From Olleya aquimaris (GTDB lineage: Bacteria > Bacteroidota > Bacteroidia > Flavobacteriales > Flavobacteriaceae), in NCBI RefSeq assembly GCF_003259525.1, contig NZ_QLLO01000002.1, positions 186,001 through 250,000 of the forward strand: DNA of 64,000 bases, written 5' to 3'. Of the stretch, positions 8,037 to 47,859 are shown in pieces. Every line of letters starts with the position of its first letter. Positions within the stretch are counted from its first letter, which is position 1. The notes beneath the pieces are model-generated. The model saw only the letters and a list, made by a program, of their open reading frames with translations, was not told the DNA's origin and did not search any database. The translations under genes were made by a program, and so were the position numbers.

Positions 8037-8095
8037 TTAGTTAAAATGGCGATTTCAAAAGTTTTTAACATTTTCGCATTTTTAAATGCTAAAAA

Positions 8096-8126
8096 TTGTT
8101 TTAATATTAATTATGAGTTAATTTTG
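8096..8126 (+). promoter_or_regulatory. Bacteroidota-type promoter for leucine dehydrogenase
   Basis: TTG (8096-8098), exactly 20 nt, then TAATTTTG (8119-8126) are a full match to the consensus. The inferred transcription start near 8133 leaves a leader of about 37 nt before the ATG at 8170. Confidence 0.7.
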
Positions 8127-8169
8127 CATGCTAATTTTACAAATAACGTAATCTTTATACATTAATTAA

Positions 8170-17400: not shown

Positions 17401-18128
17401 TTTTTAGATCAAACAATAATTTAAATAATTTAAGTAATTCAGATTCTACTATAAGCAAGTTTAGATTGTTTATGAATGCAGAAAATGGAGCTTCAAGAGA
17501 ATTAGTTCTTGGTTTTAGTAATATTACTTCAGATGATTTTGATTATGGATATGATGCTAAAAGTGAATCTTTTAAAGCTGATGATTTAAACTTAGTTTTA
17601 AATCAAACTCCAATGGTAATGCAAGCTTATAGCCCAATTACTGAAGATAAAGTAATTCCTTTAGTGTTTAATGCTACAACCAGTCAGTCTTATACTATTA
17701 GTATTGGTGCTTTTGAGGATTTTGATGCTAATCAAGATGTATTTATAAAAGATAATTACACTAATACATATCATGATATTAGACAGTCTGATTATACATT
17801 TACTTCTCAAGCAGGTCATTTTAATGATAGATTTGAAATAGTTTTTAAAGATCAACCTGTTTTATCTACAGACGATATATTATTTGAAGAAGGTGTTACA
17901 GTTTTCTTTAATAATTCAAATGATGTATTAGTTATTAATGGATTAAAAGAAGATCTTAAATCTGTTAGCTTAATTAATATGTTAGGACAACAAGTAATAA
18001 CATTTAATAATGTAACTATTGAAGACGCTAAATACGGTATTTCAATTACTGGATTAAGCTCTGGTGCTTATTTGGTTAATCTTACAGGAAAATCAAGAAA
18101 TGGTACCAAAAAGATAATAATAGAATAA
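11487..18128 (+). CDS. Giant multidomain secreted protein with T9SS type A C-terminal sorting domain
   Basis: This 2213-aa protein has a signal peptide (MKKFLLILLVCAFFCAQKINAQ). An SdrD-B-like module (about 33-310; NDFNQNGNKGIF, DVNSNGILDSED) has a beta-rich segment (about 103-258) inserted inside it. An Ig/cadherin-like module follows (about 316-406; NAFDDYASM, DVLSNDFD, GTDTFQYQICD), then a domain containing YDHWEDGYEADINNP. Next are a second Ig-like repeat (about 911-990), a second SdrD-B-like module with its own insert (about 1000-1270), and a LamG/concanavalin-like domain (about 1363-1521; LDFDGVDDYLDS, ALDEVRVFD). The last about 75 residues are a T9SS type A sorting signal (LINMLGQQV, GLSSGAYLVNL). 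It is predicted to be cell-surface or released; ligand unknown. Confidence 0.9.
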   Translation: MKKFLLILLVCAFFCAQKINAQCSSFVPNQNTIYGLVFNDFNQNGNKGIFEPTLQNIGVNLYQDVNSNGILDSEDILTDSDISDNTGNYTLVAPELFTYENVADNFDTSSWSGNNGSINWNNDWQELGESGVTTGNVRVDNNKLRFGRFVDGGSNISGDGVVRQITTSAYSNGILSFDFSKSISSTSGQDFSVNVQISSDGTNFTTIDNISFSDTEQNYTYDVSSVIGGTTYVRFLGSGSVGSEINNFLYIDNIDLNLALGGGYGTDFLVVLDDATIPAGMTLTSANTIAVSFSGLGNRSCNNNFGLYSCGSSCAPNAFDDYASMIQGSSVIIDVLSNDFDGNNNIDTSSLVISTQPTNGSVSIDASGNLIYSPNGVFYGTDTFQYQICDSTFLTPLCDNATVTVYVEENYIDPCVQAVQEQVYYVPFSDDDLRTALYNSGNTNLASCNYPLSNEVNRVTSIKSPYPGTVIVYDHWEDGYEADINNPVQATTQVWGDEDVTNGTSPNYSNDYIPSGGDIVLENTYNYNPRNSTNIVYDGRDKIVTSNDIAMSAIAGDVDRFEIQLAKTDVYSVDKFGTSFTVPFGEDLGQEFVYTGLFARASEDGTTINIDLDNNGTVDATQTINEGEVMFIDGGVQSGAYITSNLPIGVDLFFGGQDCFGTRQINIYPSKFYSDVYYSPVPTTRSSAPAVVYFYNSLNRTIAIDWESNINTGTITIAAKSSGSLTLSDNSGYKFESQDGSSYVASEVIDSDATGQQYDWAFNLISEERLTDFTAIAWAPGTIDFQYNYNPVWVTPTDNTTIYIKYDGDLTDATASLSPCNIPYDESRTLNALNYTQIFDTFNADNDQGGLAVFTCDGTKIFSVYGQDANLATTGTGTGTIDVGTTMQPLCLKALVFANKDIAYGLFNTPTEVNVAYNDAQFLTNLDETSITTNGLQPQNGTIVINGDGTITYTPNDGFIGQDTFEYTICSLEFPGTCDIATVTVHIADCPTPGNKNIVYGQVFFDLDEDTVNNDDLGIDDININIYEDVNSNGLVDSGTDIFYSSVSSNSLGFYSFESPNFNVEIEDDFDSNTYSGGSGWSSNWTEVSDDNNSSSGDVQIWGTKRRLQIKNNKSAYRSANLSGVTEANISFKVYERGKIDASDDVTVEICSDNSFSNCQTLFFKANDFRSSTINGVLIDSDKITSNTTIRARVNGYTSSDEYFYIDNIVIRYKVNGENLVLEIDTASLPAGYIFSTDNVEVASFASGSYGSCAKSNDFGLLRCNLEDPRVEIICDDNGTPNDASDDGFNISLDPAGTRIGTTYTVTGDLSGSGTYGTPLIFGPFSNTDNSFVFTITDDSGNCSIDNYEIEVPSNYCLFSDSSSTLDFDGVDDYLDSTLNLSGYASASMMAWVKIDDTFSNTGTVLSQGSFTLSVDNNQTIKATLNETSISLPITSAISKNIWAHVAVVFDSSLSSDQVKIFINGSLEGTITNTSLTSVITSSSDSFNIGRNVSSNNQYFKGALDEVRVFDTALTISQLQQVIYQEIAEVSNNVGGVILPKQVKDTVNNSTISWANLQAYYQMNDVENSKTSDASIYGRTAELNNITTMQEQTAPIPFITSTDGNWASTTTWLHGNVWNLSELNNSGYAIAIVDNLLTTNSGIEVLGLIIEDNKKLTVNTDNFVKVNSYLELNGQLDLQQDSQLIQGVNSDLVTSVNGEILRRQEGNSSVYWYNYFSSPVSDASVSVLTDNNSTNNLNNTGFTLNNLQYGNGNVVTYTNAYHATGSISTYWMYDFINGVTYYDWAFVNPSVAIAPGTGYTQKGTGVGTEQQYIFKGKPNNGVIHIDAIDTGGPGSDPTQAGGYTKTDYLLGNPYPSALDIHKFIDDNAGVSDGSIRLWQQWSGNSHNLTDYNGGYAVVNKLASVKAYQFVGIEGGIDNTAQNGTSVPTRYLPVGQGFITEIIANGTIEFNNSQRVFIKETDADGSYSNGSVFFRSNNNLNNLSNSDSTISKFRLFMNAENGASRELVLGFSNITSDDFDYGYDAKSESFKADDLNLVLNQTPMVMQAYSPITEDKVIPLVFNATTSQSYTISIGAFEDFDANQDVFIKDNYTNTYHDIRQSDYTFTSQAGHFNDRFEIVFKDQPVLSTDDILFEEGVTVFFNNSNDVLVINGLKEDLKSVSLINMLGQQVITFNNVTIEDAKYGISITGLSSGAYLVNLTGKSRNGTKKIIIE

Positions 18129-26733: not shown

Positions 26734-26859
26734 GCAAGCAGAAGACTTACCAACAAGCTATTTGTTATCTAGGACTTGATTTTAAAACTTGAGATTTTAT
26801 GTTTTATCTTTAAAATACCAAAAAATCCGACAAAAGTTTTATTATTCACGATGAAAGGT

Positions 26860-26867
26860 TATATTTG
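26860..26867 (+). promoter_or_regulatory. Possible -7 element at the head of the polysaccharide locus
   Basis: TATATTTG is a perfect TAnnTTTG; the -33 position reads TTT rather than TTG. It would put transcription start near 26874, just before the ATG at 26890, and is one reason for preferring that start over in-frame ATGs at 26776 and 26851. Confidence 0.35.
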
Positions 26868-26889
26868 TCAATTAACAAACGCCTCAACA

Positions 26890-27690
26890 ATGAAGCAAAT
26901 TATAGTGTGTGTACTGGTAGTATTTAGTCTTTTAAGTACGTCATGTATTACAAATAAAGACGTGGTTTATCTTCAAGATAAAGGAACTATTGTAGATGAC
27001 TCACTTCAAATCCAAGCTTTAGCAACGCCTTATCGAGTTCAGGTTAATGATATTTTGAGTATAAGTATCAAGTCAACAGATTCTGAGCTTAAAGGTTTGC
27101 TAGAAATTTTTCAGCCTACAAATCAGACTTCTGGAGGTGGAAATGCTCAAAGCTTATATTTTAGTGGTTTTACGGTTGATTTACATGGTAATATTGAGTT
27201 TCCAATATTAGATAAAGTTAACGTTTTAGGGTTTACTACAGATGAAATCGAAGATAAAGTTAAAGAGGCTCTATTGGAAAAATATTTAAAAGATGTTTCT
27301 AAAATATTTGTGACAGTTAAACTAGCTGGATTACGTTACACGATTACTGGTGAGGTGTCTGGTGGAGGTGTTAAGACATTATTTCAAGACCGTGTTAACA
27401 TTATTGAAGCCTTAGCCAATGGTGGTGATATATTACCCACAGGAGACAGAAAGGATATTATGGTAATAAGACAATATCCTAATGGTCAAAAAATTCATCA
27501 TATAGATTTAACAGATATTGCTGCAATGAAATCACCTTACTATTTCATACAACCAAATGATATCATTTTAGTCAAGCCACTTAAGCGTAAAGCTTTAGGT
27601 GCTGGGCAAACAGCGACGCAAACCTTTACGACTATAGCTAGTATTTTTTCGGTTTTGGTATCCACTTATTTTTTAGCTAGAAATCTATAA
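26890..27690 (+). CDS. Polysaccharide biosynthesis/export outer-membrane lipoprotein (Wza-like)
   Basis: The chosen start gives 266 aa beginning MKQIIVCVLVVFSLLSTSC, a lipoprotein signal with lipobox LSTSC. The frame is open upstream to 26776, but the extra 38 residues are not signal-like. The Poly_export domain (about 45-140; YRVQVNDILSISI, VDLHGNIEFPILDKV) is followed by a SLBB-like domain (YTITGEVSGGGV, IIEALANGGDI). A C-terminal hydrophobic segment (TTIASIFSVLVSTYFLA) could be the outer-membrane helix. Wza-like proteins form the outer-membrane polysaccharide exit channel. It is the first gene of the locus, 9 nt before the wzc-like gene. Confidence 0.88.
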   Translation: MKQIIVCVLVVFSLLSTSCITNKDVVYLQDKGTIVDDSLQIQALATPYRVQVNDILSISIKSTDSELKGLLEIFQPTNQTSGGGNAQSLYFSGFTVDLHGNIEFPILDKVNVLGFTTDEIEDKVKEALLEKYLKDVSKIFVTVKLAGLRYTITGEVSGGGVKTLFQDRVNIIEALANGGDILPTGDRKDIMVIRQYPNGQKIHHIDLTDIAAMKSPYYFIQPNDIILVKPLKRKALGAGQTATQTFTTIASIFSVLVSTYFLARNL

Positions 27691-27699
27691 TTAGTTATT

Positions 27700-30156
27700 A
27701 TGAATGAAGAATTTGATGTTTTAGACTCTGGTCCTGTATTTGATATTAAGGCGTTTTTATTTAAAGCGCTTAGTTATTGGAAGTTGTTTATTATATGTGT
27801 TGGAATAGGTGTGTTTATCGTTTATCAACAAAATATAAGAAAGCAACAATCGTACAGATTAAGTACTAAAATATCTATCGAAGACGATAAAAACCCCTTG
27901 TTTACCTCTAACACTAATCTAACCTTTAATTATGGTGGTGTGTCTGGAAAAGTGCAGACAGTAATGAATACCCTACAATCTAGAAGTTTACACGAGCAAG
28001 TTGTAGATAGTCTTCAATTTTATATTAATTATCTCAAACAATCGCGTTTTAGAAAAGACGATATTTATAAAGCAGCACCATTTAGGTTTAATCCTAGTTT
28101 TGATGACTATCAAATATTAAATACACCAATAAAAGTAACTTTTAAAAATCAAGAGACCTTCACTTTAGAATTTGATTTTAAAGGTTTAGCAGTATCCGCA
28201 CAAAATTATGATGATTATTCAGTTAAAAATTTTGATGTAACACAAGGTGTATTTAGTAGAGAATATAAAGTAGGAGCGCTTATTGATTTGCCATATTTAA
28301 ATGGAACTTTAAATGTTGTTGAAGACAGAAATATAAAGCCAGGAGATACTTATTTTTTGCAATTTCAATCATTTGATGCTGTAGTAGCCTCTTATCGTTT
28401 TAGGTTAAGTGTAAGTAATCCACGTAATTCGGCTATTTTATTGCTGAGTATGGTAGATAATAACACAAAAAAAATAGAAGATTATTTAAATAAAACAGTT
28501 GAGGTTTTAACTAAAGAACAGCTAGACAGAAAAAATCAATTTGTAACAAATACCATAAATTTCATTGATAGTCAGATTAACAGAGTTAAATCTGATATGG
28601 AAGATAACTCAGACCAGTTAAATGATTACCGCTCCAAAAACGGGATTTTTGACTTGGGACAAGAAAGCATAGCTATTACCCAAAAAATATCAACTTTAGA
28701 GTTAGAAAGAGATAATCTTTATGATAAAAAAGATTACTACAATAGATTAAAAAATTATTTACTTACAAGTACAAGTTTTACAGAATTACCTGCACCATCA
28801 ACAGCAGGAATAGATGAGACAAACATATTAAATAACATATCAAAAATTAATTCGCTATCTGTACAAAAAGCGAAATATGAAGAAACTGTTAAATCTAATA
28901 CTACAATATTTAAAGATTTAAACCAGCAAATAAATGGTTTAAAATCTGTATTGTTAGAAAATATAAGTGCAGCTCTAAATGGTTTAGATAGAGAATTGAA
29001 ACGTGTAAATTCAAAAATTGGAGTCGCTAAAGGTGAATTTAAAAAAATGCCAAAAGACCAACAGTTTTTAATGGATATTCAACGTCAATATTTATTAAAC
29101 GAAAAAACATATACCATGTTCTTGTCTAAACGTGGTGAAGCCGATATTATTAAAGCAGCCACAGTTTCGGATATTCTTTTAATTGATCCAGCAAAAAACA
29201 CTGGTGCTCAACCAATAGATTTAAAGTTAAGTTCTAGATATATGTTTGCTATTTTTGGTGGGATTTTACCTCCATTATTATTAGCCTTTTTAGTTACATT
29301 TTTTGATACCAGAATACATAATCCTCAAAATCTAGAAAGCTTGAGTTCTATACCATTGTTGGGTGTTGTTGGTAAAAATACATTAGATAATAATTTAGTG
29401 GTACACCGTAAACCAAAATCTTCTGTAGCAGAAGCGTTTAGGGCAATTAGATCTAGTTTGCAGTACATGTATAAACAACATGATTTGGATAGCACTAAAA
29501 CGGTTATGGTCACCTCTTCAGTTAGTGGTGAAGGAAAAACGTTTTGCTCTATTAATATTGCAACCGTTTTTGCCTTGAGTGGTAAAAAAACAGTATTAGT
29601 AGGTTTAGATTTGCGTAAGCCTAAAATCTTTGGTGATTTTGAAATCCAAAATGATATTGGTGCAGTTAACTACTTAATAGGCCAAAAAAACTTAGACGAG
29701 GTCACGCAACAAACTAAAGTTCAAAATTTAGAGGTGATTACCTCAGGTCCCATACCACCCAATCCATCAGAATTATTGATAAGTGAAAAGATGCATGAGT
29801 TAATGCAGTTATTAAAAGAAAAATACGACTACATCATACTAGATACACCTCCAATAGGTTTAGTTGCAGATGCTATAGAACTAGTACAGTATGCAGATGC
29901 ATCATTATATGTGGTAAGACAAGACTACACTAAAAAAGAAATGCTTAATTTAATTAACGATAAGCATAAAAAAGGTGAGGTTAAAAATATAAGTTTATTA
30001 TATAACGGGTTTAATCAAAAAGGTAAATATGGGTACGGTTACGGTTACGGTTACGGTTATGGTTATGGTAATTATGCTAATGGATACCATGAAAACGAGA
30101 CTAAGAAAGTTTCAGTCTTAAAGCGTATTTTATCTTTTTTTAATCCTTTAAAGTAA
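27700..30156 (+). CDS. Polysaccharide co-polymerase / tyrosine autokinase (Wzc-like)
   Basis: This 818-aa protein has a Wzz/GNVR periplasmic part between two membrane helices (about 28-45 and 514-535), with long coiled-coil segments at about 270-470. A cytoplasmic BY-kinase follows, with Walker A VSGEGKT (608-614), Walker A' VLVGLDLRKPK (about 633-643) and Walker B YIILDTPP (about 711-718). The C-terminus carries a tyrosine cluster of alternating Gly-Tyr (about 777-792), the autophosphorylation tail that controls chain length and export in Wzc. The GY stretch is encoded by a near-perfect hexanucleotide repeat at 30031-30069. Confidence 0.93.
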   Translation: MNEEFDVLDSGPVFDIKAFLFKALSYWKLFIICVGIGVFIVYQQNIRKQQSYRLSTKISIEDDKNPLFTSNTNLTFNYGGVSGKVQTVMNTLQSRSLHEQVVDSLQFYINYLKQSRFRKDDIYKAAPFRFNPSFDDYQILNTPIKVTFKNQETFTLEFDFKGLAVSAQNYDDYSVKNFDVTQGVFSREYKVGALIDLPYLNGTLNVVEDRNIKPGDTYFLQFQSFDAVVASYRFRLSVSNPRNSAILLLSMVDNNTKKIEDYLNKTVEVLTKEQLDRKNQFVTNTINFIDSQINRVKSDMEDNSDQLNDYRSKNGIFDLGQESIAITQKISTLELERDNLYDKKDYYNRLKNYLLTSTSFTELPAPSTAGIDETNILNNISKINSLSVQKAKYEETVKSNTTIFKDLNQQINGLKSVLLENISAALNGLDRELKRVNSKIGVAKGEFKKMPKDQQFLMDIQRQYLLNEKTYTMFLSKRGEADIIKAATVSDILLIDPAKNTGAQPIDLKLSSRYMFAIFGGILPPLLLAFLVTFFDTRIHNPQNLESLSSIPLLGVVGKNTLDNNLVVHRKPKSSVAEAFRAIRSSLQYMYKQHDLDSTKTVMVTSSVSGEGKTFCSINIATVFALSGKKTVLVGLDLRKPKIFGDFEIQNDIGAVNYLIGQKNLDEVTQQTKVQNLEVITSGPIPPNPSELLISEKMHELMQLLKEKYDYIILDTPPIGLVADAIELVQYADASLYVVRQDYTKKEMLNLINDKHKKGEVKNISLLYNGFNQKGKYGYGYGYGYGYGYGNYANGYHENETKKVSVLKRILSFFNPLK
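30031..30069 (+). repeat. Hexanucleotide repeat (GGTTAC/GGTTAT) in the kinase tyrosine tail
   Basis: Six in-frame GGN-TAY units follow each other (GGGTAC, three GGTTAC, two GGTTAT) and then GGTAAT. Gain or loss of a unit would keep the reading frame but change the number of tyrosines. Confidence 0.85.
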
Positions 30157-30160
30157 CATT

Positions 30161-31039
30161 TTGAATACTAAAAATAATAGTTCAGATTGGTTATATACCA
30201 TATCACCAAAAAGGAAGCTTATAGATCTAAATTTTAAAGAGATTTGGCGCTATCGAGATTTGCTTTTATTATTTGTAAAACGTAATGTTATTACACTTTA
30301 TAAGCAAACCATTTTAGGTCCTTTGTGGTATTTTATCCAACCTTTGTTTACAACTCTTACGTTTACTTTAATTTTTAATAACTTGGCTAATATCCCAACA
30401 GGTAATGGGATTCCTGCCTTTTTATTTAATTTAGCAGGTTTAAGTTGTTGGAATTATTTTAGTAGTTGTTTAACTGGTACAAGTAATACCTTTAAAGCCA
30501 ATCAAGGCTTATTTGGTAAGGTATACTTTCCTCGTGTTATTGTGCCTTTATCTGTAGTAATTACCAATTTGGTCAATTTTGGAATCCGAATGTTGGTATT
30601 TATTAGTTTCTATGTTTATTTTAAGTTGTTTACAGAAAGTGCAAGCCAAGCTTTGCCTACCGCTTCTGTAGTTTTATTACCAGTATTAATATTTTTAATG
30701 GCACTTTTTGGTTTAGGTTTTGGGATGATTATTTCATCATTTACAACCAAGTATCGTGATTTAACTTATTTGGTTGGTTTTGGTGTACAATTATTAATGT
30801 ATGGGTCTGCGGTAATGTATCCTTTATCCTATTTTAAAGAAAAACTACCAGAATATTCATGGTTAGTAGAGTATAACCCAATGACCACGTTTATAGAATT
30901 ATTTAGACATATGACATTAGGGACAGAACAGTTTTCATTAGCCTCATTTTTATATGCAGGAACAGTAAGTATTGTTTTCTTTTTAATAGGGCTAATTGTG
31001 TTTAACAGAACAGAAAAATCGTTTATAGACACCGTTTAG
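30161..31039 (+). CDS. ABC transporter permease for polysaccharide export (Wzm-like)
   Basis: This 292-aa ABC-2 type permease has a cytoplasmic N-terminus (EIWRYRDLLLLFVKRNVITL), the signature TILGPLWYFIQPL (about 50-62), and six hydrophobic helices. It closely resembles Wzm/RfbA O-antigen exporters. The start is TTG at 30161; no ATG or GTG in the frame would keep the conserved N-terminus. It is 1 nt away from the ATPase gene. With Wzt it would move lipid-linked polysaccharide across the inner membrane. Confidence 0.9.
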   Translation: MNTKNNSSDWLYTISPKRKLIDLNFKEIWRYRDLLLLFVKRNVITLYKQTILGPLWYFIQPLFTTLTFTLIFNNLANIPTGNGIPAFLFNLAGLSCWNYFSSCLTGTSNTFKANQGLFGKVYFPRVIVPLSVVITNLVNFGIRMLVFISFYVYFKLFTESASQALPTASVVLLPVLIFLMALFGLGFGMIISSFTTKYRDLTYLVGFGVQLLMYGSAVMYPLSYFKEKLPEYSWLVEYNPMTTFIELFRHMTLGTEQFSLASFLYAGTVSIVFFLIGLIVFNRTEKSFIDTV

Positions 31040-31040
31040 T

Positions 31041-32285
31041 ATGAAAAAAAAAGACATCATATTAAAAGCCGAAAACATTTCTAAACAATACCGTTTAGGG
31101 TTGGTAGGTACTGGAACTATTAAAGACGATTTAAAGCGTTGGTGGTTTAAAATTAGAGGTAAAGACGATCCTTTTTTAACAGTTGGAGAAAGTAATGACC
31201 GAAGTACTAAAGCAGAGTCCGATTATGTTTGGGCTTTAGAGGATATTAATTTTGAAGTTCAACGTGGTGAAGTATTAGGGATTATAGGTAAAAACGGAGC
31301 AGGTAAATCTACGTTATTAAAAATTTTATCTAAAGTCACTAGTCCTACAACAGGAGAAATAAAAACTAAAGGGCGAATAGCCTCTTTATTAGAAGTTGGG
31401 ACAGGCTTTCATGGCGAGATGACAGGTCGAGAAAATGTGTACTTAAATGGCGCTATTTTAGGAATGACTAAAAAGGAAATCAGTTCTAAAATTGATGAGA
31501 TAATTGCTTTTTCTGGTTGCGAGCGTTACATAGATACACCTGTTAAGCGTTATAGTTCTGGGATGACCGTACGTTTGGCTTTTGCAGTTGCTGCTTTTTT
31601 AGAACCAGAGATATTAGTAGTGGATGAGGTACTTGCAGTAGGAGATGCCGAATTCCAGAAAAAAGCTATAGGTAAGATGCAAGACATCTCTAGAGGGGAA
31701 GGTCGTACAGTCTTGTTTGTGAGTCATAATATGGCAGCTGTTAGAAGTTTGTGTACTAGAGGTCTTTTATTAGAAAATGGAAAGAACGTTTTTGAAAGTG
31801 AAGATATTAATCTTTGTATATCTGAATATTTAAAAAATGAACCTCATTCTAATTTGACAACTAAATATCTTAATGAAGACAAAAAATTTGGTATAACAAG
31901 TATTAAATTAACAAGTAACACTAATGTTTTTGATGTAAATGATGAAATTTGCTTTGATTTAAAACTAAGCCAATCTATTGTTGATGAGTATATTTGTGCT
32001 TTTTATGTCAGAGATGAATTAGGAGAAGTTTTGTTTTTTAGTGAATCTACAGATGAAAAACTTGTAATTACCAAAGATGATAATAATTTAAAATTTCTTT
32101 TTAATGCTCAATATTTACTTGTAGGATTTTATAAAATTACTTTTGGTATAAAATCTAAAAGTGGAAATTTAGTAGATGTTGTAAAAGATGAAATTACTAT
32201 TAATATTGTCGATACTTATAGAACACGTAGTAAAAGACCTGGAAAAATTATATTACCAACAATATGGAAAAAAGTCAAGAGTTAA
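31041..32285 (+). CDS. ABC transporter ATPase for polysaccharide export (Wzt-like) with C-terminal recognition domain
   Basis: This 414-aa protein has an N-terminal ATPase (about 1-260) with Walker A GKNGAGKST (83-91), the tyrosine-finger type segment LLEVGTGFHGEMTGRENVYL, signature SSGM (172-175) and Walker B ILVVDE (191-196). The C-terminal about 130 residues (282-395) are beta-rich (FGITSIKL, FYVRDELGEVLF, GFYKITFGI), as in the carbohydrate-binding domain of E. coli O8/O9a Wzt, which recognises the capped non-reducing end. The last 22 nt overlap the next gene, a candidate end-modifying enzyme. Confidence 0.92.
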   Translation: MKKKDIILKAENISKQYRLGLVGTGTIKDDLKRWWFKIRGKDDPFLTVGESNDRSTKAESDYVWALEDINFEVQRGEVLGIIGKNGAGKSTLLKILSKVTSPTTGEIKTKGRIASLLEVGTGFHGEMTGRENVYLNGAILGMTKKEISSKIDEIIAFSGCERYIDTPVKRYSSGMTVRLAFAVAAFLEPEILVVDEVLAVGDAEFQKKAIGKMQDISRGEGRTVLFVSHNMAAVRSLCTRGLLLENGKNVFESEDINLCISEYLKNEPHSNLTTKYLNEDKKFGITSIKLTSNTNVFDVNDEICFDLKLSQSIVDEYICAFYVRDELGEVLFFSESTDEKLVITKDDNNLKFLFNAQYLLVGFYKITFGIKSKSGNLVDVVKDEITINIVDTYRTRSKRPGKIILPTIWKKVKS

Positions 32286-34339
32286 AAACTATAAACAGTA
32301 AAGTGGGATGTTTTTTATGTAAAAACACTTCCTTCGTTCTTATTTCAGAACTTGACAGAAATGATGACCTTCTAAATAATTTTTCATGTAAGCACTGTGG
32401 GTTTATCATGGTATTGCCTAGGCCTAATTTAACAACACACAATGATTTGTATTCTTTGGGAGGTTTTTCTACTGAAGCAAGAGGAGGTAATAAGCCAAAT
32501 ATTGCTAAAATAAAAAGATCAGAAGAAATCGCTTGGTTAAATTTTAAAAGATTACAAACTGTTTTAGGGATTGAGACTTTATATAAATTCAAAGATTCTC
32601 TTGAAATTGGATGTGGTGTAGGTAGTTATTTAAGATTGTTAAGCGTTCTTGGCCAAGATGTTATTGGTATCGAGCCAGATTCAAATTTTTCTAAATATGG
32701 CAATGAAAATTATAAAATTCAAATAGAAAATACATTTTTAGAAAATTTTAAAACAAAAAAAACTTTTGATTTAATTTCTTCATTTCACGTTATAGAACAT
32801 GTCGAAAATCCGAAATATTTTGTTGAACGATGCTATGAACTATTAAATCAAGATGGAATTCTTTATTTAGAGTGTCCATCTATAGATAATTTGTATGGTG
32901 ATAATGAAAAATTCTTTTTTTGGAAACCTCATATAAATTCATTTAGTGATATTACTTTACGATATTTACTAGAGTCAAGTAATTTTGAAGTAATAGATTT
33001 AAAACATCATCGTGGATTTGTAAATGTTGTTGCTAAAAAAAGAACTCAACTATATACTCCTGATTTACAATTAGATAGTTACAAAAGAATTATTGAGTTA
33101 ATTGATATTAAAAAAAATGGAATTAGACCTATTTATAAGAATCAAAATAAAAATTTTAAATACAAATTATATAGTTTAAAAAAACAAACTGAAAGAAAAA
33201 TAAGAAAACTAAAAGAAATACTTAAAAAGAAAGAAGAAGAAAAGCAATTAAAGAAAGCTAAATATAGAATTGCACATCTAGGATTTCATAACTCTTATAA
33301 TACTGGAGATATTGCACTTTTTAATGCAGTAAGAAAACAATATGAACATTATTTAGGAAATGTACATTTTGAATTATTTGATTTACACAAAGAAGTAACA
33401 TTAGACCTTATTGATAGACTAAATGATTTTGATGGTATTATAGTTGGAGGAGGTGGATTATTTTTAAAGGACACAAATGAAAATAATATTTCAGGCTGGC
33501 AATGGGCAATCCCTGCAGAGTATTATATTAAAATAAAAGCACCATTATTTATCCATGCTGTAGGATACAATAAGTTTAGAGGTCAGGATGATTTTATCAA
33601 TAAATTTTCTGAAAATCTAAATATGTTGGTAGAAAAATCTTCTTTTTTTGGATTGAGAAATTCTGGTTCCATACAAAATATTTCATCATATTTAGATGTT
33701 GAATTAAAGAAAAAAATATCTTTTCAGCCTTGTCCAACCACGATTTTAGATGAATTATATGCTCCTAAAGCTAAAGTAAAACAAGCCAACAGAAAAAAAC
33801 GCATAGGAATAAATATTGCATTTGACAGACATAATTTGAGGTATGGCAATCAAAGTGAAGAGAACAAGATTATGTCAAGGCTTTGTCAAGTTATTAAAGC
33901 CTTACAAAAGCAAGATTATGAAGTAGTATATATTATTCATGTACCACGTGACGAAGAATTCATGCTATGGGTTTTACAATATAATATTAACATGCCAATT
34001 GAAAACTTAGTTGGGCTAAGTATTGATGATATTATTAAAAAGTACAAGACTTTTGATTTAATCATTGGTACAAGAGGGCATGCTCAAATGATACCTTTTG
34101 GATTAGATATTAGTATAATTAGCCTTATCAGTCACGAAAAGTTAAAATATTTTTTAAATGATATTAAAATGCCTGAAAGAGGAGTTGAGATTAGTTCAAA
34201 TAATTTAATTTCTGAATTATTAGATAAAGTAAAAATTTTCATAGACGACTCTGATTATTCAGATGCTAAGGATAATTTTTTAAAATGCACTTCAGATAAT
34301 TTTTCAACAATTAAGAAAACCTTAGATGGTAAATTATAA
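32264..34339 (+). CDS. Methyltransferase / polysaccharide pyruvyl transferase fusion with Lys/Glu-rich linker
   Basis: This 691-aa protein has two enzymes. The N-terminal half has a zinc-ribbon-like Cys set (C16, C19, C42, C45) and a class I methyltransferase core: EIGCGVG (114-120), then FHVIEHVENP (174-183), as in sugar methyltransferases. A highly charged helical segment (about 297-334, SLKKQTERKIRKLKEILKKK) links to a pyruvyl-transferase domain (335-660; GFHNSYNTGD 340-349, GIIVGGGGLF 391-400, GTRGHAQMIPFGL 602-614) of the CsaB/WcaK type. It starts inside the end of wzt. Inference: it caps or decorates the glycan recognised by Wzt. Alternative: internal modification of repeat units. Confidence 0.88.
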   Translation: MEKSQELKTINSKVGCFLCKNTSFVLISELDRNDDLLNNFSCKHCGFIMVLPRPNLTTHNDLYSLGGFSTEARGGNKPNIAKIKRSEEIAWLNFKRLQTVLGIETLYKFKDSLEIGCGVGSYLRLLSVLGQDVIGIEPDSNFSKYGNENYKIQIENTFLENFKTKKTFDLISSFHVIEHVENPKYFVERCYELLNQDGILYLECPSIDNLYGDNEKFFFWKPHINSFSDITLRYLLESSNFEVIDLKHHRGFVNVVAKKRTQLYTPDLQLDSYKRIIELIDIKKNGIRPIYKNQNKNFKYKLYSLKKQTERKIRKLKEILKKKEEEKQLKKAKYRIAHLGFHNSYNTGDIALFNAVRKQYEHYLGNVHFELFDLHKEVTLDLIDRLNDFDGIIVGGGGLFLKDTNENNISGWQWAIPAEYYIKIKAPLFIHAVGYNKFRGQDDFINKFSENLNMLVEKSSFFGLRNSGSIQNISSYLDVELKKKISFQPCPTTILDELYAPKAKVKQANRKKRIGINIAFDRHNLRYGNQSEENKIMSRLCQVIKALQKQDYEVVYIIHVPRDEEFMLWVLQYNINMPIENLVGLSIDDIIKKYKTFDLIIGTRGHAQMIPFGLDISIISLISHEKLKYFLNDIKMPERGVEISSNNLISELLDKVKIFIDDSDYSDAKDNFLKCTSDNFSTIKKTLDGKL

Positions 34340-35216
34340 TCCTAAAGAATGGGTAGTTGTTTTGGGTTCTGGATATAGCATAAACAATCTTCCAGAAAGT
34401 TTAATTAGCTGGATAAATCAAACTAAAGCTAGAATTGCCATAAATAAATTTGGATATTTTTTTGATTTGACTAAAGTGAAACCCAACAAGCTATATTTTC
34501 ATGATTGTAATGATGAAACTGCAGAATTTTTTCTTAGACAATCAATTGAGAAAACTTCTAAATTAGATGACATTTCTTACTATTTAAGTAGTGAAATAGA
34601 ACAATACGTTTGTCATGAAAAACTTAAATATTTAAGTAAAATAACTAGATTTAGGTCAATTCACTTTTTAGTTTCAATATTAAGAAAATTATATAAGCCA
34701 TTTTTTAAAAATAGTTTTAATAGAATAAGAGAAGATATTGAGTTAAAAAACTCTTTCAAACCAATTTTTATTAAAAAGAAAAATAAAACAAAATTTATAA
34801 GAATTGAGAGTCTTTTTTCAGAAAATAATATTTGGGGAAATAGTTTCAACGATTCATTATATCATTTTAGAGGAAGCCTTACTACCGTTTTTAATGTGAT
34901 TTCTATAGATTATCCAAAAACGAATATATTAATGTTAGGTGTCGATCTGAATGATAATAGATATTTCTTTGATAGAGAGTTAGATGATTTGAAAAAAAAA
35001 CATAAAGTGGGAGAAGATTGGACCACCAACTATATGAAAAATTCAGGAAAACATTTCAGCGCAGTTGAAATGAAAGGAGTTAGTATTTTTGATGCAATTA
35101 ATTATTGTGTAAGTAACTTAGCATCTACAGGTAATATTTTATATGCTTTTCCTAGTGAAAATGCAAGTATTTTTAAATCTGGAATAAAAGAGTTTAAAAT
35201 CAAAAGCCAAAAGTAA
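34326..35216 (+). CDS. Putative glycosyltransferase resembling GT42 sialyltransferases
   Basis: This 296-aa protein has no obvious signal or membrane helix. Features in order parallel Campylobacter CstII-type enzymes: a Rossmann nucleotide loop VVLGSGYSINNLP (10-22, compare GNGPSL), then INKFGYFF, then FRGSLTTVFNVI (about 181-192), followed by ILMLGVDLNDNRYFFD, and GKHFSAVEMKG with a His near residue 243 before the C-terminal YAFPSENA. This similarity is judged by eye and is weak. The locus contains CMP-nonulosonate genes, which fits. It overlaps both neighbours by a few bases. The DNA looks especially AT-rich. Confidence 0.55.
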   Translation: MVNYNPKEWVVVLGSGYSINNLPESLISWINQTKARIAINKFGYFFDLTKVKPNKLYFHDCNDETAEFFLRQSIEKTSKLDDISYYLSSEIEQYVCHEKLKYLSKITRFRSIHFLVSILRKLYKPFFKNSFNRIREDIELKNSFKPIFIKKKNKTKFIRIESLFSENNIWGNSFNDSLYHFRGSLTTVFNVISIDYPKTNILMLGVDLNDNRYFFDRELDDLKKKHKVGEDWTTNYMKNSGKHFSAVEMKGVSIFDAINYCVSNLASTGNILYAFPSENASIFKSGIKEFKIKSQK

Positions 35217-36487
35217 TGAAGATTCTTATAATAAGTACTTTGGATAGAGGAGGTGCAGCCAATGCCTGCTTTAGGTTGCATATGGCTTTACAAAATACAG
35301 AAGTAGTATCAAATGCTTTAGTGTTAGAAAAAAGTAAGAATTATCAAAATACATTTCAATTTAAAAAAAAGAAAAAGAATATTTTAAGAATAATAATTAA
35401 GAAAGTGGCTAATAAGATAATAGGATATTATTCTTTAGAAAAAATATTTGCTAATAGTCAAACTAATTTTCTTAATAAAAGAACAAAAGGGCTAGAATTT
35501 TTTTCTTTCCCAAATTCTAAATATGATATTACAAAAACAGAACTTTATAAAAAAGCAGATATTATTAATTTACATTGGGTTGCAAATTTTTTAGATTTTG
35601 AATCTTTTTTTAAAAATAATACCAAACCAGTAATTTGGACTCTACATGATATGAACCCTTTTACAGGAGGAGAACATTATGCAGAATTAGAATTTGGCAT
35701 AAGTAAAGAGGGTAATCCATTAGAAAGGCAATTTACAGATCATGAAAGAAAAGTTTTTAATCAAAATTTAGATTTAAAACTTCAAGCTCTAAAAAATTGT
35801 AGTAATTTAACAATAGTAGCACCTTCTATATGGCTAAAGAATCAAGCAGAATCAAGTAATCTGTTTAAAAATAGAGTGGTTTATCATATACCTTATGGGT
35901 TAAATGTAGAAGTGTTTAAAACAAGAGACAAAGCATTTTCAAGAGATTTATTTGATATACCATTAAAAAAGAGAGTTGTATTATTTGTTGCAGATTCTGT
36001 AGAAAATAATAGAAAAGGATTTGTTTATTTAAAAAGAGCTTTAGAGCAAATAAATGATGATAATATGATTTTATGTTCTATTGGAAGAGGAAAACCAAAT
36101 TTAGATACATCAATTCAAATCAAACATCTAGGAGCAATAACAGATGAAAAAACAATTAGTATTATTTATTCTTTGGCAGATGTTTTTGTAATACCTTCCT
36201 TAATGGATAACTTACCAAATACAGTTTTAGAGTCACTATTGTGTGGTACTCCAGTTATTGGGTTTCCTATTGGAGGTATTCCAGATATGATTATAGATGG
36301 TGATAATGGGATGCTTACCCAGACTGTAAGTGTAATATCTCTTGCAGATAAAATACAAGAATTTTTTAGTAAAGGTGTTACTTTAACAAGAGAACAAATT
36401 CGCACGCAAGCAATTACTAAATATAATCAAAATATACAGGCAGAAGCCTATATTAAGCTTTATAAGAAGGTGTTAAATAAAACTTAA
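35216..36487 (+). CDS. Glycosyltransferase, GT4 family
   Basis: This 423-aa GT-B enzyme has an N-terminal acceptor domain beginning STLDRGGAANACFRLHMAL, with LHWVANFLDFESFF and WTLHDMNPFTGG. The donor domain contains VYHIPYGLNVEVF (about 222-234) and the family motif IPSLMDNLPNTVLESLLCGT with GGIPDMI after it. This order (HDMNPFTGG, then the NLPNTVLE block) is common in bacterial colanic-acid-like transferases. It starts in the stop codon of the preceding gene. Sugar specificity is unknown. Confidence 0.87.
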   Translation: MKILIISTLDRGGAANACFRLHMALQNTEVVSNALVLEKSKNYQNTFQFKKKKKNILRIIIKKVANKIIGYYSLEKIFANSQTNFLNKRTKGLEFFSFPNSKYDITKTELYKKADIINLHWVANFLDFESFFKNNTKPVIWTLHDMNPFTGGEHYAELEFGISKEGNPLERQFTDHERKVFNQNLDLKLQALKNCSNLTIVAPSIWLKNQAESSNLFKNRVVYHIPYGLNVEVFKTRDKAFSRDLFDIPLKKRVVLFVADSVENNRKGFVYLKRALEQINDDNMILCSIGRGKPNLDTSIQIKHLGAITDEKTISIIYSLADVFVIPSLMDNLPNTVLESLLCGTPVIGFPIGGIPDMIIDGDNGMLTQTVSVISLADKIQEFFSKGVTLTREQIRTQAITKYNQNIQAEAYIKLYKKVLNKT

Positions 36488-36514
36488 TTTTTTAATAATT
36501 AATTTAGAAAAAAA

Positions 36515-37294
36515 GTGACAATAATTTCTATCATAACTGTAAATTACAATGATAAGCTAGGTTTAGAACGCACTATTAAAAGTGTACAAAACCAAACTGC
36601 CTCTAATTTTGAGCATATCATTATTGATGGAAATAGCACAGATGGAAGTCTAGACGTTATTAAGGACAATGAAAACAGTTTTAGTTATTGGATTAGCGAA
36701 CCTGATACTGGTGTTTACAATGCTATGAATAAAGGAATAAAAGTAGCAAAAGGTGATTATTTGTTGTTTTTAAATAGTGGAGACGATTTTTCAGATAATG
36801 ATGCATTGAAAAGAGTTAGTAAAGATTTATTTAATTCAGATATTATTTATTGTAATATCAATGTCATTGGAGCTAATTCTCAAAAAATAAAAAAATGTCC
36901 AGACCAACTGTCTTTTGAATACCTTTATAATGATGTACCACCACATCAAGCAACGTTTACTAAACGTAACTTATTTGAAACTATAGGACTTTATGATGAG
37001 ACTTTAAAAATAGTATCTGATTGGAAATTTTTAATACTAGCAATATGTAAATATAATGCGACTTATAAACATTTAGATGATGTAATTACTAATTTTTATG
37101 AAGGAGGAATAAGCTCTGTTCAAGAAAACAGAATGCTTTTAAAGCAAGAAAGAGCTACAATTTTAAAAGAGGAGTTTAGCCTTTTTATAAATGATCTAAA
37201 AAAAATGATAGAGCTTAGAGATACAATTACAGACTTACGTAATTCAAAAAAAATAAAATTATTAATAAAACTAGGTTTAATTAATAAGTTCTAA
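36515..37294 (+). CDS. Glycosyltransferase, GT2 family (WcaA-like)
   Basis: This 259-aa GT-A enzyme starts at GTG (36515) with ISIITVNYNDKLGLERTIKS. The nucleotide-binding strand HIIIDGNSTDGS (about 35-46) and the metal-binding region LLFLNSGDDF (about 86-95; DD in place of DxD) are present. A conserved segment YNDVPPHQATFTKR (about 139-152) is typical of the WcaA-like subgroup. Length is typical. There is a 27-nt gap to the upstream gene and none to the downstream one. Confidence 0.85.
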   Translation: MTIISIITVNYNDKLGLERTIKSVQNQTASNFEHIIIDGNSTDGSLDVIKDNENSFSYWISEPDTGVYNAMNKGIKVAKGDYLLFLNSGDDFSDNDALKRVSKDLFNSDIIYCNINVIGANSQKIKKCPDQLSFEYLYNDVPPHQATFTKRNLFETIGLYDETLKIVSDWKFLILAICKYNATYKHLDDVITNFYEGGISSVQENRMLLKQERATILKEEFSLFINDLKKMIELRDTITDLRNSKKIKLLIKLGLINKF

Positions 37295-38245
37295 ATGGAA
37301 GCAACTGTATCTGTTATTATACCTGTTTTTAATGCAGAACAATATATTGAAAAAGCAATAATATCTGCAATACAACAACCTGAAGTTAAGCAAATTATAG
37401 TTGTTAATGATGGTAGTACAGATAATACGGAACACATACTTGATAAATTACTTATTGACTATTCAATTTTAGAAGTTTATTACCATACAAATAAAGAAAA
37501 CAGAGGACGTTCTGCTACCAGAAATTTAGCTTTACAAAAAGCAAAATGTAATTATATAGCCTTTTTAGATGCTGATGATTTCTATTTAGAACATAGGTTT
37601 TTAAAAGATTTTGAAATTATTAATCATAATAAATTTTTAGATGGTGTATACAATGCAATAGGTGTTCATTTTTATAGAGAATATAAAGATTCAGAATTTG
37701 AAAAACTTAAATTAACAACAATTACTAAAAAGATTAGTCCAGAAAATTTATTTGAAAATTTAATTTATCACAAAAACGGACATTTTTCTTTAGATGGATT
37801 ACTATTAAAAAGTGATGTATTTAATAAAATTGGGCTTTTTAACGAAGAGTTAGCAGTAGGAGAGGACTCTGACTTGATACTAAAAGCTGCAATAGTTTGT
37901 AAATTAGAATCTGGGCAAATTGATAAGCCAGTTGCTATACGAGGTGTACACGAAAAAAACATTTTTAATAATAGCCAGTTTTATAGTGACTATAATTTTA
38001 AAGTTTTTGAATCACTACTATTTTGGTGTTACAAAAAAAATGTTGATTTAAAATATGTTGATTGGATAATGGATAATTTATGGCGATTAAAATTTAAAGA
38101 GAAGCTTAGTATGTTAACTTATATTAGATATTGGAGCACTCTTTTTATAATTAATCCAAAGGTGTTATTTTCAAAGTTAGCAATTAAGTATTTTCCACTA
38201 ATACGACTCAGAAAACAATATTTTTCATTTTTATATAATAAATAA
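37295..38245 (+). CDS. Glycosyltransferase, GT2 family
   Basis: This 316-aa GT-A enzyme begins VSVIIPVFNAEQYIEKAI with IIVVNDGSTDNTEHI (about 34-48) and the DxD-type YIAFLDADDF (about 88-97). The acceptor part includes EELAVGEDSDLILKAA (about 182-197), the ED motif with the presumptive catalytic base. Its ATG follows the stop codon of the previous gene directly. Specificity unknown. Confidence 0.87.
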   Translation: MEATVSVIIPVFNAEQYIEKAIISAIQQPEVKQIIVVNDGSTDNTEHILDKLLIDYSILEVYYHTNKENRGRSATRNLALQKAKCNYIAFLDADDFYLEHRFLKDFEIINHNKFLDGVYNAIGVHFYREYKDSEFEKLKLTTITKKISPENLFENLIYHKNGHFSLDGLLLKSDVFNKIGLFNEELAVGEDSDLILKAAIVCKLESGQIDKPVAIRGVHEKNIFNNSQFYSDYNFKVFESLLFWCYKKNVDLKYVDWIMDNLWRLKFKEKLSMLTYIRYWSTLFIINPKVLFSKLAIKYFPLIRLRKQYFSFLYNK

Positions 38246-46417: not shown

Positions 46418-47857
46418 ATGCTATTTAACTCACTTGATTTTGCTGTCTTTTTACCTATAGTATTTATACTATATTGGTTTGTTACAGATAAAAGCCTAAA
46501 GCTTCAAAATGCTTTATTAGTCCTTGCTAGTTATGTGTTTTATGGATGGTGGGATTGGCGCTTTTTGTCTTTAATTATCTTTAGTTCTTTAGTGGATTAC
46601 ACCATAGGCTTACAATTAAAAAAAGAAGACAAACCCTCTAAGCGAAAACTGCTACTTTGGACTAGTATTCTTGTTAATTTAGGGTTTTTAGGTTTTTTTA
46701 AATACTATAACTTTTTTGTTGATAATTTTGTGGAAGCGTTTTCGTTTTTCGGAAGCAAGATTCAGCCCAATACTTTAGATATTATTCTACCTGTTGGGAT
46801 TAGTTTTTACACTTTTCAAACTTTAAGTTATACCATTGATGTTTATAAGCGAAAGTTAGAACCAACTGAAGATATCGTGTCTTTTTTAGCGTTTGTCAGC
46901 TTTTTTCCACAATTGGTTGCAGGACCCATAGAGCGTGCTACCCATTTATTACCTCAATTTTATAAAAAAAGACAGTTTCATTACAGCAAAGCGGTTGATG
47001 GCTGCCGACAAATTCTTTGGGGATTTTTCAAAAAAGTGGTCATTGCTGATAATTGTGCTGAATATGCCAATCAAATCTTTAATAATTCGGCAGAACACTC
47101 TGGCAGTACTTTGTTAATGGGTGCTTTGTTTTTTACCTTTCAAATTTATGGCGATTTTTCAGGGTATTCAGACATTGCAATTGGGACGTCTAGATTATTT
47201 GGATTTAACTTAAAACAGAATTTTGCATTCCCTTATTTTTCACGTGATATTGCCGAGTTTTGGAGGCGTTGGCATATGTCACTTTCCACTTGGTTTAGGG
47301 ACTATTTGTACATTCCGTTAGGAGGAAGTAGAGGTGGAACCTGGATGAAAGTCCGTAATACCTTTATCATCTTTTTAGTTAGTGGATTTTGGCATGGTGC
47401 TAATTGGACGTTTATTGTTTGGGGATTTTTAAATGCGCTCTATTTTTTACCCTTATTATTAGCAAACCGTAACAGAAATAACTTAAATGTCGTCGCTCAA
47501 GACAGTTATTTACCAACTTTAAAAGAAAGTATGCAAATGCTAATCACATTTGGTATTACTGTATTGGCTTGGATCTTTTTTAGAGCAGAAAATCTAACAC
47601 ACGCCATGTCCTATTTAAAAGGCATTTTTAATAAAACCTTGTTATCCTTACCAAGCATAAGACCAACCAACTTAATAATTCTGATTTTGTTTTTTTTATT
47701 GATTGAGTGGATTGGAAGACGCCAACAATACGCTATTGAAGTTTTGTTTATAAAGCAATCTAGATTTATTAAATGGATGTTTTATATGATGCTAATAACA
47801 TTAATATTTTTGTTTACTTCTGATAGTCAACAAGAGTTTATTTATTTCCAATTTTAA
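46418..47857 (+). CDS. MBOAT family O-acyltransferase (AlgI-like)
   Basis: This 479-aa polytopic membrane protein has about ten helices. The family region is HMSLSTWFRDYLYIPLGG (about 286-303), and the invariant catalytic His is in SGFWHGANWTF (about residue 325). It matches AlgI/DltB-type enzymes, which pass acyl groups (often acetyl) across the membrane for transfer to extracellular polymers. The next gene is an SGNH-like partner, the usual pairing. It lies within the polysaccharide locus, so O-acylation of the glycan is the likely job. Confidence 0.92.
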   Translation: MLFNSLDFAVFLPIVFILYWFVTDKSLKLQNALLVLASYVFYGWWDWRFLSLIIFSSLVDYTIGLQLKKEDKPSKRKLLLWTSILVNLGFLGFFKYYNFFVDNFVEAFSFFGSKIQPNTLDIILPVGISFYTFQTLSYTIDVYKRKLEPTEDIVSFLAFVSFFPQLVAGPIERATHLLPQFYKKRQFHYSKAVDGCRQILWGFFKKVVIADNCAEYANQIFNNSAEHSGSTLLMGALFFTFQIYGDFSGYSDIAIGTSRLFGFNLKQNFAFPYFSRDIAEFWRRWHMSLSTWFRDYLYIPLGGSRGGTWMKVRNTFIIFLVSGFWHGANWTFIVWGFLNALYFLPLLLANRNRNNLNVVAQDSYLPTLKESMQMLITFGITVLAWIFFRAENLTHAMSYLKGIFNKTLLSLPSIRPTNLIILILFFLLIEWIGRRQQYAIEVLFIKQSRFIKWMFYMMLITLIFLFTSDSQQEFIYFQF

Positions 47858-47859
47858 AG

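Follow-up and report, generated by a model that had tools for sequence, protein, structure and literature searches.

A predicted methyltransferase–pyruvyltransferase fusion encoded directly after wzt in Olleya aquimaris, a candidate cap writer for an ABC-exported surface glycan

The window described here is a 64,000-nucleotide stretch of Olleya aquimaris DNA, and all of its features given below lie on the forward strand. Its export genes comprise a Wza/OPX-like outer-membrane export protein (26,776–27,690; PF02563, E = 1.9e-14), the true start of which may be further in; a Wzc-like tyrosine autokinase/co-polymerase of 818 amino acids (27,700–30,156; TIGR01007 over cut-off), which is 66% identical to the protein preceding wzm–wzt in genome G058; and the ABC-2 permease gene wzm (30,161–31,039; PF01061, E = 4.5e-16). 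The next gene, wzt (31,041–32,285), encodes a 414-amino-acid ATPase with a C-terminal recognition domain (PF00005 and PF14524) and overlaps by 22 nt (32,264–32,285) a gene for a 691-amino-acid methyltransferase–pyruvyltransferase (MT-PVT) fusion (32,264–34,339), a candidate cap writer. A 296-amino-acid protein follows (34,326–35,216), which may be a partner of the fusion and may act as a nonulosonate transferase; in G661, a genome from another family, the fusion cassette contains a gene 31% identical to it. Further along are a CMP-nonulosonate synthase fused to a KdsC/Kdn-9-P-phosphatase-like HAD domain (50,976–52,130; PF02348; TIGR01670 over cut-off and NF058599 below cut-off) and a NeuB-type nonulosonate synthase (52,140–53,015; PF03102, E = 8.8e-68). 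A T9SS sorting domain was also detected, which fits Bacteroidota.

In the Pfam scan of Wzt, PF00005 covers residues 66–197 and PF14524 (Wzt_C) residues 281–391 (31,881–32,213; E = 3.6e-9), in agreement with the C-terminal beta-rich domain claimed in the preliminary description. The top phmmer match of the protein is 8dku_A (E = 6.9e-62), an entry titled A. aeolicus WzmWzt. When the model of the C-terminal domain (CTD; pLDDT 85.6) was compared with the PDB by Foldseek, the first 14 matches were all Wzt or Wzt carbohydrate-binding-domain entries, the best being 8dky with 3-O-methyl-mannose (E = 4.0e-8). Structure prediction, which had been proposed as a check on whether the domain has a sugar-binding fold at all, gave a cap-binding-domain fold; as modelled, the CTD belongs to the jelly-roll fold class of solved Wzt cap-binding domains and is predicted to bind accordingly.

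The 691-amino-acid protein had been described as a methyltransferase, a helical linker and a pyruvyltransferase in one chain, and Pfam and an AlphaFold model of the whole protein (pLDDT 88.2, pTM 0.86) confirm both the parts and their order. A Zn-ribbon-like cluster, C16/C19/C42/C45 (32,309–32,398), was recognized by cysteine conservation, all four residues being invariant in three aligned sequences including that of the window. The SAM methyltransferase domain (residues 108–245; 32,585–32,998; PF13489, E = 1.3e-17) has the Rossmann fold and ExGxGxG motif of class I enzymes, as seen by Pfam, fold search and sequence. In a Foldseek search with the whole model, the 18 best matches are MtmC, KijD1 and TcaB9 structures, sugar methyltransferases in which a Zn domain and a SAM domain stand in the same order as in the fusion; by this likeness, the methyltransferase half might C-methylate a nucleotide sugar, and the fusion would supply an unusual sugar, not a cap. 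This is highly improbable, since the catalytic Y222 and E224 of TcaB9 (residues mutated in PDB titles) align with W and P in the window, on which ground an identity as sugar C3-methyltransferase was rejected, and no C-methyltransferase family appears among the Pfam matches of the fusion.

The polysaccharide pyruvyl transferase domain (residues 346–614; 33,299–34,105) carries NxGD, RxxxS and H motifs. Its PF04230 (PS_pyruv_trans) match is over cut-off (E = 1.1e-14) when residues 332–691 are scanned alone and is missed when the window fusion is scanned at full length, while the full-length relative in G661 matches PF04230 at E = 1.7e-19. Residues N15, G17, D18, R134, S138 and H275 of this half are invariant across four aligned sequences and agree with the motifs printed in PMC10629545. 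By score and motifs, the second half is thus a member of the PF04230 family and a predicted pyruvyltransferase, and no kinase occurs among the Pfam matches of the fusion. The two-headed protein probably modifies a glycan chain with methyl and pyruvyl groups.

The linker (residues 296–331; 33,149–33,256) is modelled as one Lys-rich helix, the preliminary description having it as helical and Lys-Glu-rich, with 16 K/R and 5 E/D among its 36 residues. A simple heptad count together with the AlphaFold model gave no convincing heptad stripe, the best register being half hydrophobic, and the linker is approximately 12 residues shorter in the G661 relative, so its length is not conserved. The coiled coil looked for in this segment did not emerge, and the helix was rejected as a chain-length ruler on account of its shortness, its place between the two enzymes, its unclear heptads and its variable length. 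The C-terminal helix of the model spans just residues 666–687, and neither the model nor the heptad count revealed the coiled-coil ruler of terminators in capped ABC systems. The proposal that the fusion measures the glycan is therefore abandoned, the coiled coil of WbdD being long and C-terminal.

A sequence search of the genome contigs with the full fusion returned a single match, an unrelated methyltransferase (L005). The module was found, fused or unfused, immediately after wzt in three genomes: the window's own; G661, where a 669-amino-acid relative (41% identical) lies directly 3' of wzt after a 40-nt gap; and G058, where separate MT, MT2 and PVT genes stand straight after wzt, the first overlapping it by 20 nt. 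G286 departs from this pattern, its MT-PVT pair lying approximately 10 kb from wzt beside NeuB–NeuA; in the group that includes its Wzt CTD, eight of nine loci have an aminotransferase directly downstream. The suggested search for the fusion beside wzt elsewhere was thus answered by the same fusion in one genome and by separate genes in another, with G286 as the counterexample. The window and G661 have the fusion in common, while their Wzt CTD sequences are no more alike than usual (z of 2.5 against a median of 2.9, rank 66 of 111; BLAST E = 7.9). Both this difference and G286 speak for an alternative in which the fusion modifies repeat units or a side branch and not the chain end, operon order accounts for its position after wzt and Wzt recognizes another feature; some pyruvyltransferases act on every repeat, as WcfO of B. 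fragilis reportedly does. The recurrence of MT-PVT directly after wzt in three genomes weighs against repeat decoration, which is considered fairly unlikely.

It is improbable, to a greater degree, that the module serves mainly to finish a nonulosonic acid, probably Kdn-like, made by NeuB and the CMP-synthase and attached by the 296-amino-acid or a polysialyltransferase-like protein, with the MT-PVT enzymes modifying it or an adjoining sugar and export gating being secondary. In G661 and G286, MT-PVT is immediately followed by NeuB and NeuA-HAD, the cassettes of G058 and G286 also contain PF07388 proteins, the 296-amino-acid gene comes after the fusion in the window and, in G661, after NeuA, and the CMP-synthase carries a fused KdsC-type phosphatase. 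However, NeuB is approximately 18 kb from the module in the window and 15 kb in G058, and its occurrence in all four MT-PVT genomes was set aside as evidence for a nonulosonate cap because a similar NeuB is present in 44 of 249 family genomes. The transferase assignment itself is putative and draws on a sub-threshold PF01973 match of the G661 relative (E = 6.7e-6). For the 296-amino-acid protein, whose gene is present in one of 199 family genomes, the window's own, membership of a solved family was rejected: phmmer yielded just four unconvincing matches (E = 0.43–0.9), a two-sequence profile yielded none, and the Pfam match was confined to the relative and below threshold.

To return to the candidate cap writer, the gene after wzt (+1) was surveyed in 112 loci, found by similarity to the window Wzt at E <= 1e-50; such similarity occurred at 141 places in 133 of 249 genomes, and the survey comprises 111 of these places plus G661, with 29 mostly lower-ranked places left out and L089 dropped for a stop inside wzt. 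Gene calling followed a simple longest-ORF rule, some loci lie at contig ends and nine have flanks of 1.5 kb only. In most loci, approximately 82 of 112, the +1 gene encodes a decorating enzyme (methyl-, sulfo-, acyl- or pyruvyltransferase), and in nine a glycosyltransferase, by categories built from single-linkage clusters and their representatives; for four of the single assignments (L054, L070, L095 and L145), the Pfam score is under the curated cut-off. Pfam GT2 was counted at +1 in three of 112 loci against 35 of 101 at +3, the +1 tally having been made on a first set of proteins, some of them incomplete. This enrichment of decorating enzymes at +1 relative to +3 argues against repeat decoration, whereas a phylum sample in which 23 of 148 genomes have PF04230 proteins, counted irrespective of distance to wzt, is in its favor. 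Pyruvyltransferases occupy +1 in six loci, in three architectures (MT-PVT, radical-SAM-PVT and PVT alone), and at one locus, L090, the +1 protein joins kinase-like and methyltransferase domains. The 22-nt overlap in the window, although real as claimed, was rejected as a sign of coupling because wzt overlaps the following gene in 52 of the 112 loci; the gap or overlap is within 50 nt in 105.

The kind of +1 gene is associated with the kind of Wzt CTD. Twelve of 19 CTD groups share a +1 family, against a mean of 1.4 and a maximum of 6 in 1000 shuffles that ignore relatedness among loci. The +1 family is shared in 45 of 65 CTD-similar pairs and 26 of 3,912 CTD-dissimilar pairs, the pairs being non-independent, with two groups supplying 31 of the 45, and the association also holds inside bins of ATPase-domain identity. 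An initial claim that the CTD tracks +1 above later genes was true for pairs, for which sharing at +1 to +5 is 45, 22, 25, 8 and 7 of 65, and not for groups, which share +2 in 12 of 19 and +3 in 11 of 19 cases (+4 and +5, 6 and 4 of 16). Because the preference for +1 fails at the group level, the odds given to a specific CTD/+1 link were lowered, and with +2 and +3 shared almost as often, linkage may explain part of the +1 sharing. That physical linkage is the whole explanation, recombination inside the conserved ATPase part importing the CTD with the next few genes, is consistent with the like sharing at +1 to +3 and the fall in shared pairs with distance. Such an account is nonetheless quite improbable: the ATPase part adjoins the CTD directly and yet covaries with it only weakly; 26 of 51 CTD-similar pairs with a homologous +1 share no other +2 to +5 gene above 45% identity (19 of the 26 from one group); and the contrast of decorating enzymes at +1 with frequent glycosyltransferases at +3 is left unexplained.

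The reading tentatively favored, at close to even chances, takes the fusion to be a cap writer for an ABC-exported surface glycan, with the Wzt CTD binding the cap and licensing export. The fusion would act on the cytoplasmic side once the lipid-linked chain is finished and would equip its non-reducing end with an O-methyl group and a ketal-linked pyruvate, either on a single sugar or across two adjacent terminal sugars, a Kdn-like nonulosonic acid being one candidate acceptor; the C-terminal jelly roll of Wzt would then bind the modified end and license export via Wzm. We infer the terminal position of the modifications, both activities and the binding by Wzt. The Wzc-like protein and the kinetics of export are likelier determinants of chain length than the short helix of the linker. 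As in capped ABC systems, Wzt has a C-terminal jelly roll, with binding predicted from its fold, and a candidate terminating enzyme is encoded with wzm–wzt in the window and G661. The earlier suggestion that the fusion caps the glycan is therefore retained in part: the CTD fold, G661 and the decorating +1 slot argue for it, and G286, the unlike CTDs of window and G661 and the sharing of +2 and +3 against it.

A broader reading, possible but held with clearly less than even confidence, is that in this Bacteroidota family the position after wzt holds interchangeable cap writers, matched to an equally interchangeable cap-reading domain of Wzt. Known caps (methyl, methyl-phosphate, Kdo and pyruvate) would be only part of the range, which would extend to sulfate, acyl, aminosugar, methyl-plus-pyruvate and radical-SAM-plus-pyruvate caps, gating would proceed without a coiled-coil ruler, and the window fusion would be a double-headed writer. 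In known systems, export is coupled to a chemical tag carried by the end of the chain, and proven tag chemistries are few; a methyl-pyruvyl enzyme beside a Wzt with a recognition domain would offer a new chemistry that can be tested directly. Should the survey reading be right, the +1 gene would predict the tag, suggesting ligands for many uncharacterized Wzt recognition domains, and capping would work without the coiled-coil ruler held to be typical.

Among known systems, the order of the WbdD gene beside wzt resembles that of the window, and to our knowledge WbdD has no Zn-ribbon. WbdD entries are absent among the sequence matches of the fusion. In E. coli O9a and Klebsiella O3, WbdD likewise has two catalytic domains with the methyltransferase N-terminal, and its partner Wzt has a cap-binding domain (PMC3482155), as the window Wzt has by fold. 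The second domain is a kinase in WbdD and a pyruvyltransferase in the fusion, and the long coiled coil of WbdD follows the two catalytic domains (residues 460–708; PMC3482155), whereas the fusion has a 36-residue helix between its domains. The claim of a shared layout is therefore not supported, and the fusion falls outside the WbdD family as defined by a methyltransferase, a protein-kinase fold and a C-terminal coiled coil. WbbZ of Klebsiella O1b, a pyruvyltransferase, uses PEP to cap an ABC-exported O antigen at its non-reducing end; it has the same motif set as the pyruvyltransferase half of the fusion, and its PEP-dependent action shortens the polymer in vitro (PMC10629545). It stands alone, whereas the window pyruvyltransferase is fused; its capping is partial, its transporter is not cap-specific and its in-cell effect on length is small, terminal pyruvate in Klebsiella O1 being described as barely affecting length and as not gating export (PMC10629545). 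Pyruvate caps are thus already published, with WbbZ and with Burkholderia and Pseudomonas candidates, here compared by description only, for which pyruvate chain termination is proposed (PMC10629545). The parts of PMC3684754 consulted hold nothing on caps, and literature on Wzt with chain termination by pyruvate or sulfate, and on Bacteroidota, a scope outside which most subscription journals fell, gave no report of the fusion. The Klebsiella O7 ORF6 and O4 ORF7 terminators are also multi-module and varied in chemistry (methyl-phosphate and Kdo), and they carry a coiled-coil ruler (PMC11231755). The CTD of Aquifex aeolicus WzmWzt has the fold of the window's at 16–18% identity and binds a methylated terminal sugar, its cap being 3-O-methyl-mannose/rhamnose (PMC9445017).

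Genes for Wza-like and Wzc-like proteins, wzm, wzt (31041-32285) and a gene for a 691-aa protein (32264-34339) follow one another in the window, all on the + strand, and the coordinates, lengths and 22-nt wzt/fusion overlap given in the preliminary description all agree with the ORFs read here. The 691-aa protein is a fusion in which the methyltransferase (MT) domain is a plain Pfam match and the pyruvyltransferase (PVT) domain assigned to it was recovered as PF04230 (E 1.1e-14) with the C-terminal part scanned separately. Because Pfam does not call PF04230 in the full-length fusion, the match coming from the C-terminal half alone, automatic annotation may label the protein as a methyltransferase only. 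The NxGD, RxxxS/T and H motifs described for the PVT family (PMC10629545) are found in the fusion and are invariant across four aligned sequences, including that of the window. Its N-terminus is Zn-ribbon-like with four cysteines, a feature absent from the preliminary description. The model of the whole fusion is confident (pLDDT 88.2, pTM 0.86) and has one helix (residues 296-331) separating the two enzyme domains.

The PVT half is rare, recovered from four of 397 genomes within the window's family (E <= 1e-15) and in two of 395 across the phylum (four-sequence profile, E <= 1e-20), the window's own counted in both. G661, a genome of another family, also encodes a fusion (669 aa, 41% identical to the window's), which starts 40 nt past wzt; after it come NeuB, a CMP-nonulosonate synthase with a HAD phosphatase, and a relative of a 296-aa protein of the window. 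The 296-aa protein (34326-35216) is itself rare, occurring in one of 199 family genomes (the window's own), and its relative in the G661 fusion cassette (L174, 247-1086) has weak MptE-like (PF01973) similarity; the two are perhaps a new transferase family. Within the window's family, G058 has a Zn-ribbon MT overlapping wzt by 20 nt, then a second MT and then a PVT, all as separate genes, while the MT (40% identical) and PVT genes of G286 overlap by one base and lie ~10 kb away from wzt, adjoining NeuB and NeuA. The match in G011 is a distant stand-alone PVT protein (26% identical), with no methyltransferase among the neighbouring ORFs shown. MT and PVT go together in four genomes; the fused form occurs in two families, and in three of the four genomes the enzymes are encoded beside wzt.

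The C-terminal domain (CTD) of Wzt, as modelled (pLDDT 85.6), has the fold of a reader. The 14 best PDB matches of the model are Wzt or Wzt cap-binding-domain entries, led by the Aquifex domain with 3-O-methyl-mannose, after which comes the domain that serves Kdo-capped O12.

The slot directly after wzt (+1) was surveyed at 112 loci: that of the window, a further 110 in its family (out of 141 places listed, and including G058 and G286), plus G661. Approximately 82 of the 112 +1 genes, assigned from clusters and their representatives, encode methyl-, sulfo-, acyl- or pyruvyltransferases, the remainder being DegT aminotransferases (10/112), glycosyltransferases (9/112), and other or unclassified genes (11/112). 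PVT occurs at +1 in six of the 112 loci. In Pfam tallies, which are independent of the cluster assignments, Glycos_transf_2 was counted in 3/112 genes at +1 vs 35/101 at +3, and Sulfotransfer_3 in 21/112 vs 4/101. Sulfotransferase is the commonest Pfam family directly after wzt (for example at L034, L051, L071 and L106), which suggests sulfate as a possible cap. At several loci, the +1 gene encodes two or three enzymes as a single polypeptide. For instance, L097 combines sulfotransferase and methyltransferase, L081 acyltransferase and sulfotransferase, and L138 (G231) and its close relative L141 (G053) have a radical SAM-PVT protein directly after wzt; proteins of this last type are 726-761 aa long in L138, L141 and L151 (G593), the L151 protein being assigned to this type by eye, on the basis of its sequence and a PF04230 match. 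The 610-aa +1 protein of L090 (G274; 6819-8648, - strand) has hexapeptide acyltransferase, protein-kinase/RIO-like and methyltransferase domains; its pairing of kinase-like and methyltransferase domains is WbdD-like and occurs within the window's own family.

Association of the CTD with downstream genes was assessed by pairs and by CTD groups. At 96 loci with at least five such genes, similar CTDs being those at E < 1e-40 and dissimilar ones those at E >= 1e-3, homologous genes at +1, +2, +3, +4 and +5 were shared by 45, 22, 25, 8 and 7 of the 65 CTD-similar pairs and by 26, 78, 83, 111 and 95 of the 3912 dissimilar pairs, counts that overstate the association because 31 of the 45 sharing pairs come from two groups. 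Across five bins of ATPase-domain identity (70-100%), +1 was shared in 33-62% of CTD-similar and 0.1-1.4% of dissimilar pairs, and in 2000 shuffles of +1 among loci the count averaged 5.0 and peaked at 15, against 67 observed. When loci were grouped by CTD (19 groups, 59 loci), a gene was shared at +1 in 12/19, +2 in 12/19, +3 in 11/19, +4 in 6/16 and +5 in 4/16, with shuffled means of 1.4, 2.0, 2.1, 1.9 and 1.5, respectively. Since sharing is similar at +1, +2 and +3, the CTD moves together with the three genes that follow it, and +1 is not set apart by association. Of 51 pairs with both a similar CTD and a homologous +1, 26 had no further gene of +2 to +5 in common at >45% identity, but 19 of the 26 stem from one group. 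The first slot is distinguished by its content of decorating enzymes, not by association strength.

For the fusion itself, pairing with the CTD fails the simplest test, a negative result: the window and G661 have the same fusion, yet the similarity of their CTDs comes 66th in a ranking of 111, with profile comparison still showing a single fold. CTDs are fast-diverging domains, and the sugars capped in the two may not be alike. In G286, where the MT-PVT pair lies away from wzt, the CTD group has an aminotransferase at +1 in eight of nine loci, and L137 has a CTD as in L138/L141 but a methyltransferase at +1. Three glycosyltransferases of the window (35216-38245; GT4, GT2, GT2) are 48-63% identical in L138 and L141. 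The +1 gene and Wzt CTD differ despite these common enzymes, and the loci perhaps specify a common glycan core with the end swapped.

A candidate acceptor is a nonulosonic acid, given that the cassette also encodes NeuB, the CMP-synthase and possible transferases. The reading is weak for the window since its NeuB is ~18 kb off and such NeuB occurs in 44 of 249 family genomes. Elsewhere in the window, an MBOAT acyltransferase precedes a protein whose DUF1574 similarity is weak and below cut-off (46418-48777), the two being perhaps an AlgI/AlgJ-like pair that acetylates an exported glycan. A 2213-aa protein (11487-18128) combines a T9SS sorting domain with tandem-95-like repeats that score below cut-off.

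The fusion may be read as a cap writer that would add a methyl-pyruvyl cap, with the Wzt CTD as its candidate reader, because the slot after wzt has writer-type content and the CTD a reader fold. The earlier proposal of a WbdD-like terminator with pyruvyltransferase replacing the kinase is partly supported, being favoured by slot content and CTD fold and weakened by the failed CTD pairing of window and G661 and by the linker, whose suggested role as a ruler is unsupported: the coil of WbdD is C-terminal (residues 460-708; PMC3482155), whereas the fusion has a 36-residue helix between the enzymes, and the G661 linker is ~12 residues shorter. The wider pattern, with decorating enzymes filling the slot, is the more valuable finding, and a bold reading is that these enzymes would write what Wzt reads. 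In the literature listings covered, which leave aside the census likeliest to contain it, no account of an MT-PVT double enzyme in a Bacteroidota system with Wza-/Wzc-like proteins was found. A pyruvate cap as such is not new, since it is a proven terminal cap in Klebsiella O1b, where the polymer is shortened in vitro in a PEP-dependent manner, and pyruvate terminators were proposed without biochemical proof for two Proteobacteria (PMC10629545). In the capped systems described, a terminator modifies the chain end and halts growth, and Wzt exports capped chains only (PMC3482155, PMC11231755, PMC9445017), whereas the Klebsiella O1b exporter lacks cap specificity, and length in the cell is hardly altered by the pyruvate cap (PMC10629545).
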